A stretch of DNA of 43,463 bases. It comes from a virus. Of the stretch, positions 5,069 through 17,496 are shown in pieces. The translations under genes and the position numbers were made by a program. The notes under the pieces are model-generated. The model had not been told where the DNA came from. It did not search any database and was given only the letters and a program-made list of their open reading frames with translations. The stretch covers positions 1-43,463 of IMG/VR virus record IMGVR_UViG_3300021601_000001, one strand, 5' to 3'. Position 1 is the first letter of the stretch, and each line of letters begins with the position of its first letter.

Positions 5069-7040
5069 TAGTCAGCGTCTCCTCTAGTTCTATCTGCTTA
5101 ATTTCAAGCTCTTTTAGCTTAATTTGCTTGTCTAACACTTCCATTTGTTGGTCATGCTGTTGTTGTTGGGCTTTCAGTTGAGCGTCAAATTCTTTCAAGC
5201 GGGCATCAGCTTGTTTTAACGCAACTTCAGCATCTTGCAATTGCATTTGTTTCTGTTCAACCTGTTGTGCTTGTTCTTGATGCGATTGTTGAGCCTTAGC
5301 CTCTTCTTCCGCCTCTTCGTCTGATTTAAACCACTGGTCAGTGTCTAAGTTGACGCTATGCAGTACGCCTTTAGCCGTTCTTTTAACGCTAAATAAAGAC
5401 AGTGCTGCTTCACCAAACGGAGCCAATATTTCACTAGCCGTTTTAAGCCCTTGCAGAGAGTCTTGTTTCTTTTTGAAATTCTCATAGCCCACCGCTTTAA
5501 TGTTCAATTCTAGCGAAGGGCGTAACGCCGTTAATACCTTTTGTTTTGGGTCAACTTCCGTAGGGGCTTGTTGTTGCTCCATACCCTCATTTTCGTTAGG
5601 CACCGATACCAGCGTCGGGTCATTGGGCGTAGGCTTTTCTTGCGTAACTTGAATGATTGACTCAAGCAACGGTTGAAACGGCTCGTTTTGCTCCCTTACG
5701 GCTTCTTGGTGTATCATGTTGTAAAACATTTCAACCAACGGTACGTTAATATCGTCGTTGATATCACCAGCCATTAAGTCCATCTTGCTATTAGCAGAAT
5801 TGTGAACGGTATTTATCTCGGTAGCGGTACGATTATTTTCTTCGATAATGCCTTTTACCGCTTTAGGCACAGTAACGCTTTCAAATTCAGACTTGGCAAA
5901 GCTAACAGCATTAAACGCCCCTTGTACGTCCCCTTCGGTCATCTGTAACCTAAATACTGTTTGAGGACTCCCCATAGGGACTAAAGCCCCGGGTGTGGAA
6001 ATTATGTTTTGCGGGTCAAACATAGCATCTGTAGGGATATACCCATTAGGAGGGGATATATTCAAAGCCTGTTGTTGCATGGCATCGTTGACGTTATCGC
6101 ATGACAGCAACCAAAGGTCATGCACAGAAGAAGTCAGCGGATACCCGAAGAACTCCCCGTTTATTGCACTTAAAGCCGTCCAAACAAACGGTGAACTGTT
6201 ATAGGGTAGGTTGTTATCCACCCACCGAACAAGCCACTTGTTTTCTATCACCAATGCCACTTTGTTTTCAAAAGAAACGCCATCGGTTAGCACCAATTCA
6301 GGTATCCACGCCTCATCGGCAACGTATTTATCTTCTTTAGGCTTCCGTTTTTGGTCTGCTAGCCACTCTTTGAAATCAGGGTCTTGAAAGTACCCCTCAT
6401 CTTGGCAATTAAGCAGTTTTTCCAGCCCTACAATGCTATGGTAGGTACGGTGAATTTTAACTGCTTTTTCAAATTCACCCGATAGTGGATACGGAAAGAA
6501 ATCTTTGGGGTCAATTGCATCTACAGAGGGCTGGTGAAATACCAAGCGTGGCTCTGATTCACCAATAACTTGCTTGTACTCTGTTTTCCACTTAATTTTA
6601 TACCCACCAGACCCCTTTAATGCCAGTTCTTTTACCCACTTTTTAGCTTTTTTGTAAAAGCCATCTCTATCAAAGCAATAACCCGTGTACCGTTCTAACA
6701 GTTCACTATCCAGCTCATCTGAATAATTGCGTCCCTCAATAGCGAAGAAGTTCTCACCCCGAGGGTACAACGTAGGGGCTAAGTGGGCAACTAATGAATC
6801 AACCGCATCTTTAAACCACGGTAACGAATACTCACGTTCGTACTGGATGTTGTTAGTGGTGTTAGCCCTTTTTTGAACGCCTAAATAACCAGCTTCGGCA
6901 TACTCCCCAGCCGTCATGTACTTCTTTTTGCCCTTTTCCGACTTTTCACGCTTTTTGGTAATCCATCCAACAATGCGTTTCTTTTGCTCATCCGTTGGCA
7001 TCGTGTTATCAGGCGTAGTCGTTAGTATCTCTTTATCCAT
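4932..7040 (-). CDS. Portal protein
   Basis: A 702-aa portal (head-tail connector), the dodecameric ring through which DNA enters and leaves. The length suits P22-type portals, which carry a barrel extension. The N-terminal half holds wing/clip-like sequence (EREYSLPWFKDAVDSLVAHL, then WVKELALKGSGGYKIKWKTE). The last ~170 residues are a Gln/Glu/Lys-rich coiled coil (QEQAQQVEQKQMQLQDAEVA), consistent with a helical barrel reaching into the capsid. The gene overlaps TerL by 8 nt and the next small gene by 137 nt. The call comes from place after TerL, size and architecture. Confidence 0.85.
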   Translation of the reverse strand: MDKEILTTTPDNTMPTDEQKKRIVGWITKKREKSEKGKKKYMTAGEYAEAGYLGVQKRANTTNNIQYEREYSLPWFKDAVDSLVAHLAPTLYPRGENFFAIEGRNYSDELDSELLERYTGYCFDRDGFYKKAKKWVKELALKGSGGYKIKWKTEYKQVIGESEPRLVFHQPSVDAIDPKDFFPYPLSGEFEKAVKIHRTYHSIVGLEKLLNCQDEGYFQDPDFKEWLADQKRKPKEDKYVADEAWIPELVLTDGVSFENKVALVIENKWLVRWVDNNLPYNSSPFVWTALSAINGEFFGYPLTSSVHDLWLLSCDNVNDAMQQQALNISPPNGYIPTDAMFDPQNIISTPGALVPMGSPQTVFRLQMTEGDVQGAFNAVSFAKSEFESVTVPKAVKGIIEENNRTATEINTVHNSANSKMDLMAGDINDDINVPLVEMFYNMIHQEAVREQNEPFQPLLESIIQVTQEKPTPNDPTLVSVPNENEGMEQQQAPTEVDPKQKVLTALRPSLELNIKAVGYENFKKKQDSLQGLKTASEILAPFGEAALSLFSVKRTAKGVLHSVNLDTDQWFKSDEEAEEEAKAQQSHQEQAQQVEQKQMQLQDAEVALKQADARLKEFDAQLKAQQQQHDQQMEVLDKQIKLKELEIKQIELEETLTNGEHQRGINERMAKNPEKQTVVGIDKTTPTSKGGASNQSSDDTDD

Positions 7041-8358
7041 TGTGGCGTTTTCCCCTTGAATAATAGGTTTGCTTGGCGGTTGAATGTACGCCTACGTTTT
7101 CAATAAACAAATACCGTAGGCAATCTATAACGTCCTCATAAGGGTGCTTACCCTCGAAGGCTTCTTGCTTGTCATCATACCGACTGCTTTTATATCGGTA
7201 CCCATGTTCTAAAGCTTCAACCAACGTAGGGCAATTCAACGCATCCACTTGAAACGCAGGGCTACCATCGATTAACTTACCCATTAGCGATTTAAGGGCA
7301 TCAACGCCGTTTTTAATCAGTCTGTTTTCAAGCACACGGTCAAATCGTGGGTAGATGCCTAACTTGTTTAAATTGGCAACGTGGCTAACATCGTGGGAAG
7401 TAGCAAAGCCCTTAGTATTGCCCGCAGGGTCGCAAGTATCGCTCCACGTTACGCTTTTGGGTAAATACATGGCTTCCCATTGTTGAACAATGCCCGCTAT
7501 TTCTTCCGTGTTGCTGTCTTCTAACACAAACTCTTTTAATATCCGTAACCGCCCCATATTATCCGTTTGCCCAATAATACACGCACAAGTCATGCCAAAG
7601 TCCCATGCCCTTAATAGCGGTCTACCCACGTCAATTGCCCCAAAGTCTGTAGGTTCTACCTTATGCAAGGCTTTAAAGCCTTTGAACACGGCATTATTAT
7701 CCCGAAGGCTTCTAAACTCCCCCTCCCACACATGCCCGTAGTCATCAGGGCGTGCTCGCTTATCGTTTAGCCTTTCCATCTCCAGCACGTTAGGAAACCA
7801 CGGATTATCGCAGTAGTTTAGTTTCACAATTTTAGCGTTATGCGGTGGATTATCAAGAAACCGCTTGGTAGTAGCTGAATTCTTATCTGCTGGATTCCAA
7901 GTAAGCCATATCTCTGAACCTTCCGCGCGTATAGTCGGAGTTAAAATAGACCAGCTTTCCTCTGATACTTTTTCCGCTTCTTCTACCCAGCAGATTTTAA
8001 TCCCTTCAATGGACTTGATAGACTCCTCCACATCGGAGCGAATGCCCTTAAAGATAAATTCAGACCCATTTTTTCCCCTAATAAATGATTGTCCCCACTC
8101 GAAGTTGGAAGCAAGCCACGGGGTGGACTTTAAAACACTTATCAACTGGCTATGCACTGATTCCTTAATAGAGTTCTGCAACTCCCTAGCACACAATACC
8201 CGAATAGGCTCTTGATAAGCACGCACAAGGCACATCAACGCAAAAGAATAACTTTTACCGCTACCACGCCCACCGTATGCCCCACGATAACGACTGCCAT
8301 CGCTGAAATCAAACACGTTTAGCAGTTTTTCAGGCAGTTTAATCGTTGCTTGTTGCAT
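7033..8358 (-). CDS. terL: Terminase large subunit (ATPase and nuclease)
   Basis: The 441-aa DNA-packaging motor. Walker A is GGRGSGKS (residues 29-36), Walker B ICWVEEAE (122-129, catalytic E126/E127), and the coupling motif TWNP is at about 153-156. The C-terminal RNase H-like nuclease shows WDFG (D253), SDTCDP (D307/D310) and HPYEDVIDCLRY (D409/D412). This is the Terminase_3/PBSX-type arrangement, a group that includes headful-packaging phages. Headful packaging would give circularly permuted DNA and explain the circular assembly. It overlaps TerS by 20 nt. Confidence 0.95.
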   Translation of the reverse strand: MQQATIKLPEKLLNVFDFSDGSRYRGAYGGRGSGKSYSFALMCLVRAYQEPIRVLCARELQNSIKESVHSQLISVLKSTPWLASNFEWGQSFIRGKNGSEFIFKGIRSDVEESIKSIEGIKICWVEEAEKVSEESWSILTPTIRAEGSEIWLTWNPADKNSATTKRFLDNPPHNAKIVKLNYCDNPWFPNVLEMERLNDKRARPDDYGHVWEGEFRSLRDNNAVFKGFKALHKVEPTDFGAIDVGRPLLRAWDFGMTCACIIGQTDNMGRLRILKEFVLEDSNTEEIAGIVQQWEAMYLPKSVTWSDTCDPAGNTKGFATSHDVSHVANLNKLGIYPRFDRVLENRLIKNGVDALKSLMGKLIDGSPAFQVDALNCPTLVEALEHGYRYKSSRYDDKQEAFEGKHPYEDVIDCLRYLFIENVGVHSTAKQTYYSRGKRHNG

Positions 8359-10478: not shown

Positions 10479-10814
10479 TTAGTCTTCACTGTTTCCAATC
10501 AACCAAGCGATACCCTTCCAAGCTTTTTTCCGTTCTTTGTTGAATGCTTTTCTATCCACTTCCTGCCCGTTGGGTGGGTCTAGGTTGTGAATAACATCCG
10601 AGTGTTCACGGTGGAAGGTATCCGTTACGGTAGCCAGTGGAGAGCTTGCCTTACGCCCGATGTGATGAAGATTGACGTGCAAGCCGTCTGTTCCTATCGG
10701 AGCTTTGCCTTTAGCCATGCGTGCTAGGTTTTCTTCGGTGTGTTCAAAACACGCTGGGTTGACGTGAACGGTTTTTTTAATTGCTGGTATGCCAATGGCT
10801 TGAAAGATGCTCAT
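10479..10814 (-). CDS. LHH-type HNH/endonuclease VII superfamily nuclease
   Basis: A 111-aa protein encoded against the surrounding early genes. The core is VNLHHIGRKASSPLATVTDT followed by FHREHSDVIHN: Leu-His-His at 49-51, then H68, H71 and H76. This matches the LHH nuclease domain known mainly as the toxin tip of polymorphic toxins, a metal-dependent DNase fold. Here it stands alone, without trafficking domains or an obvious immunity gene. It lies next to the putative origin, behind its own TATAAT box. Roles could include host DNA degradation or homing. Confidence 0.75.
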   Translation of the reverse strand: MSIFQAIGIPAIKKTVHVNPACFEHTEENLARMAKGKAPIGTDGLHVNLHHIGRKASSPLATVTDTFHREHSDVIHNLDPPNGQEVDRKAFNKERKKAWKGIAWLIGNSED

Positions 10815-10849: not shown

Positions 10850-11150
10850 GAAAAAGTTTAATGGACTAATGGGCTTAATGGGCAAAAACATTAGCCCATC
10901 TTCTAAAGCCAGTGATAGCAACGTTTTACGCCGATGGACTTAATGGACGAGTCAAGATATGGTAGATATATATTTCAGTTAATAGAATAGGGGGAAAATA
11001 TATAAATAAATATAATAGTTTATTATTCTATACCCATCTAGTCCATCTAGTCCATCAACCTTAAAGCCAGTGATAGCAATACTCTTAATCGACTAGTAAA
11101 AATTGAACTTTTTTAGTCCATTAGTCCATCAACTAGTCCATTAAAAAACT
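10850..11150. other. Putative replication origin: iteron-like repeats and AT-rich core
   Basis: Intergenic stretch without a gene. ATGGACTA/TAGTCCAT-type units occur at about 10861, 10934 (inverted sense), 11038, 11046, 11113, 11121 and 11133. A 17-bp direct repeat AAAGCCAGTGATAGCAA is at 10905-10921 and 11063-11079. Between them is an AT-rich core (10970-11035) framed by the inverted repeat ATAGAATA (10982-10989) and TATTCTAT (11024-11031). It sits directly before the ATPase-primase gene. Iterons plus an AT-rich unwinding element is the usual form of an initiator-dependent origin; function is inferred. Confidence 0.6.
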
Positions 11151-11173
11151 TTAAATATACTACAAATAGATGA

Positions 11174-11202
11174 TTACTAAGTGGTTTCTACTGTGCTATA
11201 CT
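11174..11202 (+). promoter_or_regulatory. Promoter of the ATPase-primase operon
   Basis: Weak -35 TTACTA (11174-11179), 17-nt spacer ending in TGC, -10 TATACT (11197-11202): an extended -10 promoter. The predicted start at about 11209 leaves a leader of about 120 nt before the ATG at 11330. Confidence 0.55.
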
Positions 11203-11259
11203 TAAAGTGCGAAGATGAGGAATGGTTATTTTTTAGTTTTAACTTGAGGCGAAAGCCTG

Positions 11260-11311
11260 CCCCCTCCAAACCTTTCCTGCCTTCGCAAGCATTAAAAGGA
11301 GGGGGTTTTTT
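11260..11311 (+). terminator. Terminator-like attenuator in the primase leader
   Basis: CCCCCTCC (11260-11267) pairs with GGAGGGGG (11298-11305), followed by six T. It stands between the promoter and the gene, so it must be passed for expression. A small GGC-GAAA-GCC hairpin (11248-11257) precedes it. CTTG/CGAA (11243-11253) could instead pair with TTCGCAAG (11282-11289) inside the loop, so alternative folds are possible. Confidence 0.65.
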
Positions 11312-11329
11312 ATTTTCTGAAAAGGTATT

Positions 11330-13573
11330 ATGAAAAGGTTTGTAAGTGAAAAGGGTTTAAGTGTGCATAAGAGACTTGAAACAATTGTAGATTTACTTTC
11401 AAAAGCAGACCCTGAAAGTGGGAAGCAATTGGTAAGGGCTTTCTTTATCGACGAGCTTTTTCAGTTTCTTGGCAGAACGCAATGCTTGTTTTTGACTGCA
11501 ACGTTGCCTTATTCAACGTTGCCACTAACTACTTGTATGTTTACCGTAGCACCTACAGGTGGCGGTAAGTCGAGAATTAAAACATCATTGGGGTATATTT
11601 TCAAAGAATACCAACAGGCGTACAGTAGGGCTTTGCATGACAAACTCGGTAAGTACAATGAGGGGGTAGAAGCTGAAGCTATTGTAAAATTTGGGGATAA
11701 CGATAAGCAAGCAAGCAAGCGTGATGCTTATTTTAAGGCGAATAGCATAAACGGTTTTGTAAGAGTTAATGACCAAATAGGGACGAGCCAAGGCGTAGCT
11801 CAAGCCGTAAACACAATGAAGCTTTTGAGGCTTGGTAGTTATTGCCACCGTTTTGATGAGTGTGCGAAAACCATTGTTTCAAGCAATCAAAACACAAGGG
11901 ATTTTTTAGAAAATTTATTGTCTTTTACAGGTGGGGCTACCACTATTGGGCGAACTATCAAAGGTGAAGTCCTTGAGCTTGACGCAACAGGCGTATCGTT
12001 TAATATTCACTTTTTTGGAAATGAAGAACCACTAGGTGAAAACCCTAGGAACTTAAGCATATTCAGAGCGTTTTTAAGAGAAGGGTTTTCTCGTAGATGC
12101 TTTTATACTTACATTAAAGAACGTCCTAGTTATACTCGTGAAGATATGGACGTGGTACCCGATGAGAGCAAGTTCAATTCTTTTTCTAAGCATTTTTTGA
12201 ATGAGTTTAATAGATTGATGCAATTAGAAAATAAGGTTTTTACTTTTACGGACGAGGCTAAAAAGTTTTTAAAAGATTACAAGTTTGATAATAGATTACC
12301 AACAGGCAATGTAGATGCTGATAATGAACGTATCGACCATGTTTTTAAGTGTCAGAAAATGGCGTGTGCGTTGGCGTTTTTAGATAAAACCTTTTTAGTT
12401 GATGAGGGGCATTGTATCTCTGCGATGCAGTATGTGCAAGAGTCGGCAAATGCCTATTTGGAGCTACTAGGAAGCATCCAGCGTAGTGTTCAATCAAAAA
12501 CAGATACTTATCCATTACAGATTTTTGAAGAGCTTTCACAAAAAGGTACATTAACTAAGAAGCCGTTGCTTAGAAGCCTTCACCCTTCACCGCAAGGGCA
12601 AAGTTCAGAAAAATGGGAGTCTTATATCGCTGATGCTAGTAAATTTGCAGAGGAAGAAGGGTTTTTTTTAATTGCTGAACCCACTAAGAACGGCAGGGGG
12701 ATGCAATACAGACTAGAAGAGATGCAGGAAACAACCAACGCAATGGTTACTTACTCCATTAAAGCCCCTGATGTTCTTGAAGAACCTAAAAGATGCCTTG
12801 CAAAGGGGTATGAAGTTATGACTACTTCTTTTGAAGATTTTACTTTATTGTCGTCATGCCTTCACGTTTCCCCAGCTATATTTAAAGACGGGCACCGCTC
12901 AACGGATAATGTGGAATACTTAGGCAACCTAGCGTTTTTTGATATTGATAACGAAGTAACAACAGACGCTATGCTTACCATCGAAGACGCACAACGCCGT
13001 TTGTTTGGCTACCAAGGCGTTATTATTGAGTCAATGAGCAGTACAATCGAACAACCCCGCTTTAGAGCGGTGGTTGTTCTTGATAAGCCTGTTAAAGGAA
13101 TTAGCAAAGAAAGCTACAAGCAAGTATTAAGCAACATTGCAAAGCATCTAGGTATAGATGGAGCAATAGATAAGGCTTGTATAGAGCCAGCTAGATACTA
13201 TGCACAAACTGCTAGAGAAGCAGGGAAGGGTGTTTACTACTCCAATATGTATGGAAAGCCTTTAGAGTGGGAAGCGTTTCTAGGCGTCAATCCTAGCATT
13301 AGCAAGCCTACTGTTTATTCAAAGGGTACGCTTGATTTTTCACAGGATGAAGTAAAAAGACGGTTCCATAAAGCCGTTCAAACGTCTGTTAAAAAATACT
13401 GGAGAGAGGGAGTTCGCAACAATCTTGTTTATTATTTAGCAAAACTAGGAAGGGAAAAAGGTATTGTTGACCTAGATATAAAACAGATGATTGACAACGA
13501 AACAAGCAACAGTGGTTTACCACTTTTACCCAAAGAACTTGAAGTTACTATTGCCAATTCAACTAGATATTAA
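11330..13573 (+). CDS. ATPase/helicase-primase fusion, replication protein
   Basis: A 747-aa protein. The N-terminal half is a P-loop ATPase: Walker A APTGGGKS (K80), Walker B-like CHRFDE (D176, E177), similar in style to DUF3987/YfjI helicase-like proteins. The C-terminal part looks like an archaeo-eukaryotic primase: AFFDIDNE (D538, D540), QPRFRAVVVLDKP (R577-R579) and IDGAIDKACIEPARYYAQ (D610 on). Primase-helicase fusions usually place the primase first, so this order is reversed. It lies just after the putative origin and is the only replication enzyme seen. The primase assignment is by motif, without a search. Confidence 0.75.
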   Translation: MKRFVSEKGLSVHKRLETIVDLLSKADPESGKQLVRAFFIDELFQFLGRTQCLFLTATLPYSTLPLTTCMFTVAPTGGGKSRIKTSLGYIFKEYQQAYSRALHDKLGKYNEGVEAEAIVKFGDNDKQASKRDAYFKANSINGFVRVNDQIGTSQGVAQAVNTMKLLRLGSYCHRFDECAKTIVSSNQNTRDFLENLLSFTGGATTIGRTIKGEVLELDATGVSFNIHFFGNEEPLGENPRNLSIFRAFLREGFSRRCFYTYIKERPSYTREDMDVVPDESKFNSFSKHFLNEFNRLMQLENKVFTFTDEAKKFLKDYKFDNRLPTGNVDADNERIDHVFKCQKMACALAFLDKTFLVDEGHCISAMQYVQESANAYLELLGSIQRSVQSKTDTYPLQIFEELSQKGTLTKKPLLRSLHPSPQGQSSEKWESYIADASKFAEEEGFFLIAEPTKNGRGMQYRLEEMQETTNAMVTYSIKAPDVLEEPKRCLAKGYEVMTTSFEDFTLLSSCLHVSPAIFKDGHRSTDNVEYLGNLAFFDIDNEVTTDAMLTIEDAQRRLFGYQGVIIESMSSTIEQPRFRAVVVLDKPVKGISKESYKQVLSNIAKHLGIDGAIDKACIEPARYYAQTAREAGKGVYYSNMYGKPLEWEAFLGVNPSISKPTVYSKGTLDFSQDEVKRRFHKAVQTSVKKYWREGVRNNLVYYLAKLGREKGIVDLDIKQMIDNETSNSGLPLLPKELEVTIANSTRY

Positions 13574-14122: not shown

Positions 14123-15169
14123 ATGATGACTAATTACATTAAATCAACGGTAAAAGACCTACCAAAGAAGAAAGTAAATTTAGATACAAAAGACAAGCCG
14201 ACAGCTATTGCAGAATGGTTGAGAGATTGGCTTATTTCAAGACAAAAAAATGGAAAGATTTCAGATAACCATCTTTTACCATTAAAGAAAGATATTGCTG
14301 ATTATTTAGGTACTAGCATAGGAACGGTTCAGACCGCAGTTTTAAAGTTACAGGATGATGGGCTTGTAATTGGAATGCAACGCATAGGGTCTATAGTCTG
14401 CCCTTTATATGTTGATATTGATATTGATGTTAATAAAAACCGCTATTTGAAGCTTTCGTCTAAAAGAGATTCTGCTATTAGTGTTTTAAAAAAATATATT
14501 ATCAATAGCAATATGCAAGTAGGCGATAGCCTCCCTTCAGCTAGGGATTTAGCAACTTTAATTGGTGGGGGAGCTAGCAATGTTAGGTTAGCCTTAAATT
14601 ATTTAACAAAGCAAGGTATTGTTGTTTCAAAAGGGGGTAGTAGTAAAACAGGTGGCTGGAAGTTGGCAGTTTTACCAGTTCTTAATGAAGATACAGATTG
14701 CTCAATGGTTGTTAGAAGTGAAAGTATGGTAGCTAAGCTAACCCCATTAGTTGAAGCTTTTTTATTAGGAAATTACAAACAAGGTGAAAGAATACCTTCT
14801 TTTAATGATTTAGCAACTATTTTTAATGTCTCTATTAAGACAATTAGCGATGCGATTGTTTTGTTGCAACAAAAAGGTTTCCTCTACAGTAAAAGAGGAA
14901 GGCATGGTACTTTTTTGTCTAACGGTAGCTATCAGCCCGCAACCGATTTTTACCATTATGAAAAAGCTTTAGAAAAATTAAAAGCTTTATTTGCCAATGA
15001 TTTAAACACAAAAAGCCCTGTTAAAACAAAAGAACTTTCTGATTTAATAGGTTTTCATTACATGACAGTCAGAAGAGCTTTGTTGCATTTAAAAAAAGAA
15101 GGTTTAATTTCTTTTGTTCGTGGCGTAAAAGGCGGTGTTGTTGTGAACAACAAGGAGCTAATATGCTAA
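14123..15169 (+). CDS. DNA-binding protein with four GntR-type winged helices
   Basis: A 348-aa protein. Four copies of the GntR pattern (basal Pro/Leu, helix-turn-helix, then hydrophobic-Gly wing) are visible: residues 51-82 (LKKDIADYLGTSIGTVQTAV), 137-167 (LPSARDLATLIGGGASNVRL), 224-254 (IPSFNDLATIFNVSIKTISD) and 289-319 (KTKELSDLIGFHYMTVRRAL). No ligand-binding (FCD/UTRA) domain is present. Multiple winged helices in one chain suit binding to a repeated DNA site, so it may be the iteron-binding initiator for the origin at 10.85-11.15 kb, or a master early regulator. Function is inferred. Confidence 0.75.
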   Translation: MMTNYIKSTVKDLPKKKVNLDTKDKPTAIAEWLRDWLISRQKNGKISDNHLLPLKKDIADYLGTSIGTVQTAVLKLQDDGLVIGMQRIGSIVCPLYVDIDIDVNKNRYLKLSSKRDSAISVLKKYIINSNMQVGDSLPSARDLATLIGGGASNVRLALNYLTKQGIVVSKGGSSKTGGWKLAVLPVLNEDTDCSMVVRSESMVAKLTPLVEAFLLGNYKQGERIPSFNDLATIFNVSIKTISDAIVLLQQKGFLYSKRGRHGTFLSNGSYQPATDFYHYEKALEKLKALFANDLNTKSPVKTKELSDLIGFHYMTVRRALLHLKKEGLISFVRGVKGGVVVNNKELIC

Positions 15170-16319: not shown

Positions 16320-16348
16320 TTGACAACATGATTAAAAGGTGTTACTCT
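16320..16348 (+). promoter_or_regulatory. Promoter upstream of the ncRNA block
   Basis: -35 TTGACA (16320-16325), 17-nt spacer, -10 TACTCT (16343-16348). The upstream 15-mer CTAAATAAATTACTT (16304-16318) is identical to that before the promoter at 21526 and may be an UP element. The leader carries an ACGA tandem run (16367-16380) and lacks a strong Shine-Dalgarno. Confidence 0.7.
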
Positions 16349-16741: not shown

Positions 16742-16767
16742 GGCAGTGTTACATGACTGCCCTTTTT
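16742..16767 (+). terminator. Terminator before the large structured RNA
   Basis: GGCAGT (16742-16747) pairs with ACTGCC (16756-16761), 8-nt loop, then five T (16763-16767). The short stem may allow read-through into the RNA that follows. Confidence 0.75.
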
Positions 16768-16768
16768 C

Positions 16769-17496
16769 TAAAGCTAGCCCCATTAGGCACATATCCCTTA
16801 GTAAGAATACGCCTAGTGGACGCTGGTTTTAAAAAGAGGTAACGCATTACCCCTTTAATGGATACACAGCATTGATATCTTATCCCCCTACAGGTTAAGG
16901 TGCTTATAACGTTTAATGTGGTAGCCAAAAAACTACCAGTGTATCCGCTAAATAGGTAACAAAACAAATAACCATTACGCCATTATGTGGTCAAGCGTTA
17001 TTTGTGTTGCTTTGTACATTGACAATTGAAGTATTTTAAAATCCATTGATACTACCGCACCGCCTTAGGAATGCGGGTCAAATCTTATCAATGGTTCGCC
17101 CCCTGTTGCGAATACAAAGCAGGGAAGATAGCAGGCAACTGTCTATCATCGCTGGTTGAGATTGCCAGCAGTTGGCAAGTTGAACCCGACTTGCAATCAG
17201 AGATGTTGACTCTTAAATAAACAACAGGCTTGCAGGGTGTTAAATCCCTGCCTCTTGCCTACAGTAGAAAACACCACACTGGCAAAAGCGAGCATAGCAA
17301 GTAACTAGTGTAAAAGAACTTAGAGAGGGTTGGTGAAGCCTCATTAAAAAGAAACCGTGGATGTTCGGTGGGTAAGGTTCGGTGCAAGGCTTTGCTTTCT
17401 TCTGTAGGCAAGGGAAACCTTGCAACCAATAGAAAAGTCAGGGTATCTATTCTGCAATATAGTGTGACAGCTTAGTAGCATAGATGCCTTTTTTTT
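16769..17496 (+). ncRNA. Large ornate noncoding RNA candidate (~0.73 kb)
   Basis: No plausible plus-strand protein. Helices seen by eye: 16780-16788/16811-16819; 16833-16842/16847-16856; 16860-16867/16939-16946; 16919-16924/16933-16938; 16964-16972/16997-17005; 17043-17051/17086-17094 enclosing 17055-17059/17072-17076; pseudoknot 17095-17099/17108-17112 with 17101-17105/17120-17124; 17127-17134/17139-17147 capped by GCAA; three-way junction 17160-17198; 17232-17237/17246-17251; long-range 17255-17264/17402-17411; 17336-17341/17387-17392; 17408-17413/17418-17423 capped by GAAA; terminal hairpin with T8. Length, phage setting, pseudoknot and GNRA loops are like the GOLLD and ROOL large RNAs. 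Membership is not established, and the promoter is uncertain (16320 by read-through, or internal). Confidence 0.75.
17442..17496 (+). terminator. Terminator of the large RNA
   Basis: GGTATCTAT (17442-17450) pairs with ATAGATGCC (17480-17488), one G-U pair, followed by eight T (17489-17496). The Shine-Dalgarno GGAGG of the next gene starts two bases later. Confidence 0.8.

Follow-up and report, generated by a model that had tools for sequence, protein, structure and literature searches.

What is encoded by the long gap between two small early genes, here called A and B, of the phage represented by IMG/VR record IMGVR_UViG_3300021601_000001 (43,463 nt, analysed over its full length and referred to below as the window)? 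A preliminary description had proposed that positions 16769-17496 specify an ornate noncoding RNA of ~730 nt lying between two terminators, possibly a divergent member of the GOLLD or ROOL families or a new class of RNA. Large structured phage RNAs are few; the best known, GOLLD and ROOL, have lately been found to assemble into RNA-only cages, whose function is unknown. The questions are therefore whether the structure is real, where the element begins and ends, and whether it acts on its own or on the gene that follows it.

The folding of this region stands out in a scan of the whole genome on both strands, in which the 728-nt segments at 16745(+) and 16769(+) come first and second among 238, their z-scores being about -6 relative to a genome-wide mean of -0.66 (sd 1.5). 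The plus strand of 16769-17496 has a minimum free energy of -230.2 kcal/mol (z -5.4 versus dinucleotide shuffles), the minus strand is weaker (z -4.3), and three parts of the RNA are each significant (z -4.9, -3.7 and -3.5); by way of calibration, the same method gives z -3.05 for E. coli rnpB (RNase P RNA). A coding gene was ruled out by codon scores and by the lack of a conserved frame, as the preliminary description had supposed in finding no credible plus-strand protein: ORFs within the region have codon log-odds at or below 0 with a single exception (+0.01 per codon), compared with +0.1 to +0.4 per codon for most of the adjoining small genes, and no reading frame is conserved between this RNA and that of the relative described below.

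The helices described previously are all present, and the further coordinates given for the window are correct. Pairing is 9/9 in 17043-17051/17086-17094, 92% in 16960-16972/16997-17009, 81% in 16847-16867/16939-16959 (which includes an 8-bp core), and 90% in the 20-nt long-range helix 17254-17273/17393-17412. Both of the GNRA tetraloops noted earlier are also there (GCAA at 17134-17137 and GAAA at 17414-17417), but the GAAA hairpin reuses the GCAAGG of the long-range helix, so the two structures are mutually exclusive. As to the flanking terminators, the downstream one stands, whereas the supposed upstream one corresponds to hairpin HPA and helix P1 (Table 1): the U-tract of the upstream hairpin (16742-16768) pairs with 16833-16839 and forms the 5' strand of P1, as its counterpart does in L083, which places the start of the element near 16742 and its true extent at about 16742-17496 (+), or ~750 nt.

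Table 1. Features of the locus in window coordinates, with their counterparts in the related contig L083.
Feature	Position	Strand	Remarks
Likely sigma70-type promoter of gene A and the RNA, predicted from sequence	16320-16348	+	TTGACA, 17 nt, TACTCT, with TG before it; falls short of the 9/12 cut-off used in the consensus scan; L083 has TTGACT, 17 nt, TAGTAT at the same place
Gene A, 110 aa	16392-16724	+	L083 homologue at 6025-6360, 74% identity; no Pfam match
Hairpin HPA	16742-16761	+	GGCAGU/ACUGCC; 0 nt between HPA and P1
Long helix P1	16762-16838	+	16762-16777 with 16823-16838, extending inward; U-tract in 5' strand; also in L083, with 4 double compensatory changes
Conserved block AAAAAGAGGTAACG	16831-16844	+	3' strand of P1 and the single strand after it
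Extra folded domain of the window phage	16845-16949	+	Missing from L083; flanked by direct repeats AAAGAGGTAAC/AAATAGGTAAC
P2/P3 stem-loop	16955-17027	+	Carries conserved block TTATTTGTGTTGCTTTGT..TTGACAATT at 16998-17027, the highest sequence conservation in the locus
9-bp hairpin	17043-17094	+	L083 has an unrelated hairpin here
Further hairpins of the window phage	17095-17228	+	Without L083 counterpart; a GCAA-capped one at ~17126-17146
Hairpin HPB	17232-17251	+	GCAGGG/CCCUGC, abutting PB; 3 double compensatory changes relative to L083 7090-7105
3' domain closed by helix PB	17252-17414	+	17252-17269 with 17397-17414, 17 pairs and 1 mismatch; in L083 (7106-7310) 18 pairs, 6 double compensatory changes; the hairpins it encloses are not the same in the two phages
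Hairpin competing with PB for GCAAGG	17408-17423	+	GCAAGG-GAAA-CCUUGC
Conserved tail CCTTGCAACCAATAGAAAA	17418-17436	+	
Intrinsic terminator	17441-17496	+	Hairpin of -17 kcal/mol, T8; weaker L083 counterpart
Gene B, 84 aa	17506-17760	+	83% identity in L083; AlphaFold2 model of the protein unusable (pLDDT 51)

Comparison was possible with one relative contig, IMGVR_UViG_3300042502_001009 of IMG/VR (37 kb; L083), which was recovered by a combined query of the flanking genes and returned again by a second alignment query. Neither blastn nor queries with the terminase, primase and GntR-like protein, or with words and pseudo-peptides derived from the RNA, found useful relatives of this unclassified, orphan phage; terminase relatives in IMG/VR have 32-55% identity in their best segment, and an Akkermansia match (L082) was rejected as chance. 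L083 and the window phage have most early genes in common, in the same order, and also lysis genes (a holin-like protein is 89% identical), with different virion modules, which points to whole-module exchange between phages.

A divergent form of the RNA sits in L083 between its homologues of genes A and B. The blocks that can be aligned between the two RNAs are all short (AAAAAGAGGTAA(A)CG, TTATTTGTGTTGCTTTGT..TTGACAATT, hairpin-CCTCTTGCCT and CCTTGCA(A)CCAATA). L083 is without the two window segments 16845-16949 and 17095-17228, and it contains two small ORFs with no counterpart in the window. One of these, ORF c (about 50 aa), separates the 5' and 3' modules, is flanked by two copies of hairpin-CCTCTTGCC and is preceded by a terminator-like UUUU hairpin; the other lies upstream. 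This natural variant, in which the RNA is split by a gene, suggests which of its parts must be continuous. We also note that just before ORF c (L083:6868-6925) a GTGGGG/CCCCAC hairpin is followed by a second GTGGGG strand and TTTT, a possible three-strand attenuator.

Each of the two RNAs was folded separately, and both contain modules of a common plan: a short G+C-rich hairpin, a gap of 0 nt, a 16-18-bp helix enclosing fast-changing arms, and a conserved tail. Module I (HPA then P1) lies at 16742-16761 and 16762-16838 in the window and at 6600-6645 and 6646-6722 in L083; module IV (HPB then PB) lies at 17232-17251 and 17252-17414, and at 7090-7105 and 7106-7310, respectively. The pairs of these four elements are formed at 46 of 46 positions in L083 and 44 of 46 in the window, and 15 of the 46 differ on both strands yet stay paired, in a comparison of two sequences only and for helices chosen after both folds had been seen; plain MAFFT alignments of the RNAs misalign the arms and were left out of the pair counts. 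Redealing the changed 3' letters restored full pairing in 0 of 100,000 trials, and when the conserved outer anchors were fixed and the interior shuffled, separately for each phage, helices of the length of PB or P1 arose in 0.05-0.4% of shuffles. When 20 kb of the window's early region were scanned blindly for hairpins directly adjoining a helix of 12 bp or more, the two modules were the only sites found.

Because these helices are kept in L083 by compensatory change, the RNA structure is very probably selected, as had been argued from the density of helices, and covariation, which had been named as a check, is seen against the one relative available. Further support comes from the fold of L083, whose noncoding modules carry the signal (z -4.0 and -2.3) while its coding sequence loses it (-0.2 in ORF c, +0.8 in gene B), and the G-U pairs present on the plus strand in both phages support a plus-strand RNA. 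The locus very probably yields a rightward transcript that carries a modular structured RNA of ~750 nt whose fold is under selection.

The gene order makes a cis or a trans role of this RNA directly testable. The start codon of gene B is 9 nt after the T8 run of the terminator with a GGAGG Shine-Dalgarno (SD) sequence between them, so any promoter of its own would lie inside the RNA, and a consensus scan found none scoring at least 9/12 between the terminator and gene B; in L083 gene B begins directly after a U-rich run and SD, in the same order. Gene B is thus promoterless by consensus scans, and an intrinsic terminator immediately preceding the SD of such a gene is the arrangement that marks attenuators. 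The same layout recurs at the primase gene, where hairpin GGCGAAAGCC abuts a strong terminator standing 17 nt ahead of the ATG; the leader concerned (11139-11330) is 84% identical in L083 and, from its sequence, appears to be a second attenuator-like leader. The repetition of the gene B layout in L083 and at the primase favours a role in cis.

Our preferred reading, to which we give a probability of roughly 0.45, is that the RNA acts in cis, as an intercistronic leader governing how far the terminator is read through into gene B, by a mechanism that we infer as follows. Polymerase would start upstream of gene A in the early operon, copy gene A and the structured RNA, and then reach the terminator, with gene B being expressed only upon read-through. 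Folding of the modules may set the extent of read-through, for example by competition between PB and the GCAAGG/CCUUGC hairpin, the equivalent of which is present in L083; alternatively, polymerase, a ribosome or a phage factor might bind the modules. This switch remains putative, since the competing hairpin and the terminator stem do not overlap, and neither an alternative fold clearly rivalling the terminator nor an antiterminator overlapping it was evident. A leader of ~750 nt is very long for an 84-aa protein, and its 5' module is 600 nt from gene B; the terminator may also simply be leaky, or give way to general phage antitermination, in either of which cases the RNA would act in trans. 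In favour of the leader, gene B sits right behind the terminator in both phages without a recognisable promoter, and ORF c with its own UUUU hairpin splits the L083 locus as separable leader units would.

Some of the same observations can be accommodated by a stand-alone RNA made in infection and acting in trans, like GOLLD, ROOL or the ~800-nt RNA of Vibrio phage ICP1, and this alternative commands a substantial minority of our belief. Such an RNA would be cut or started near 16742, end at 17496 and fold into a particle or scaffold, with leaky read-through supplying gene B. Its size, complexity and strong z-score, and a 3' end at a strong terminator, would be as expected, as would two domains joined by a tolerant linker that holds extra sequence in L083 (compare the variable linker of GOLLD; PMC12286853), and ICP1 illustrates that phages can carry such RNAs away from tRNAs (PMC7567579). 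However, a scan of the 300 nt before 16742 for promoters scoring 9/12 or better found nothing beyond two weak sites inside gene A, gene B would have no promoter that can be recognised as its own, and an ORF and a terminator-like hairpin interrupt the RNA in L083. Since the first U-tract also belongs to P1, the earlier picture of an independent ~730-nt RNA between two terminators is doubtful, and we lean towards the intercistronic leader.

It is improbable that the locus is instead a recombination-prone gap where small genes have come and gone, leaving behind a mixture of terminators and hairpins whose helices persist as terminators or processing sites, with no single RNA function. The two small ORFs confined to L083, one of them between hairpin-CCTCTTGCC copies, and the direct repeats around the window's extra domain would suit such a history, but the 18-bp PB and 16-bp P1 are maintained by compensatory change, conserved unpaired blocks persist, and hairpin-plus-long-helix elements are absent from the rest of the 20 kb scanned in the window's early region. 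Very improbable, in our judgement, is a modification of RNA polymerase of the kind mediated by HK022 put, in which abutting nascent stems would bind polymerase and cause it to ignore terminators. The abutting stem pairs upstream of terminators and of genes without recognisable promoters recall the two stem-loops of put RNA, which have almost no linker (PMC9378689); put is ~70 nt, though, and follows early promoters, whereas here the helices enclose 45-170 nt and the element is mid-operon.

Several other features of the early region deserve mention. Upstream of the primase gene, 10850-11150 contains iteron-like repeats (TAGTCCAT, GGACTTAATGG) and an 18-nt direct repeat TAAAGCCAGTGATAGCAA, and from these repeats is a candidate replication origin; an origin at the RNA locus was rejected, the iteron-like repeats being here instead. 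An LHH-type HNH nuclease gene (Pfam PF14411) at 10479-10814 (-) is on the opposite strand to the neighbouring operon, and the 348-aa product of 14123-15169 (+) has three or more GntR-type winged-helix domains in tandem, which is unusual in a phage.

How does this RNA compare with known families and systems? It is noncoding, its fold beats shuffles and it covaries (between two sequences), as is general for large structured noncoding RNAs. With Rfam 15, no credible plus-strand match was found in the window or L083 at gathering or permissive (E<=10) filters, GOLLD and ROOL included, and a direct search of both records with the GOLLD model (RF02032) was empty; weak minus-strand matches to isrP and pestivirus families in the window were attributed to chance. 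No tRNA was found in the window, and no tRNA or tmRNA identity was detected for the RNA. GOLLD is often near tRNA islands, although this is not a strict requirement. The proposal of a divergent GOLLD or ROOL thus did not hold up: the locus is a real, selected structured RNA without an Rfam family, and by the tests used it is neither of these. A new class is possible. In its fuller version this would be a large RNA of phages with no relation to GOLLD or ROOL, made of repeated hairpin-plus-long-helix modules and a linker into which genes can be inserted, and it would work in trans, either as an RNA particle or by acting directly on RNA polymerase; this version we consider unlikely on balance.

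The likeness to GOLLD is in being a large phage RNA with 5' and 3' domains joined by a variable linker, as described for the 5' and 3' regions of GOLLD (PMC12286853); the window RNA differs in failing the covariance model, with its conserved 3' region, in the absence of a window tRNA and in its helix plan. ROOL is similarly large, ornate and of similar size, but the window RNA fails its model. The most abundant transcript of ICP1 is a noncoding RNA of ~800 nt that is not near tRNAs (PMC7567579), and the corresponding orf-less space (80097-81107) has a fold z of -3.0 and is below every Rfam gathering score. The two RNAs are thus alike in size, in having no Rfam family above threshold and in lying away from tRNAs, but they share no sequence similarity, and ICP1 has ~110 nt with a promoter-like TTGACA between the terminator and the next gene where gene B follows at 9 nt. 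Like HK022 put, the window RNA places abutting stems ahead of terminators in an early phage transcript; put is ~70 nt, near promoters and proven to bind polymerase, whereas the window RNA departs from it in size and position and its binding is hypothetical. Compared with attenuator leaders the window RNA is far longer, and a ligand, a leader peptide and a terminator-overlapping antiterminator were not identified, but it resembles them in that its terminator stands only 9 nt from gene B and is preceded by structured RNA with competing helices.
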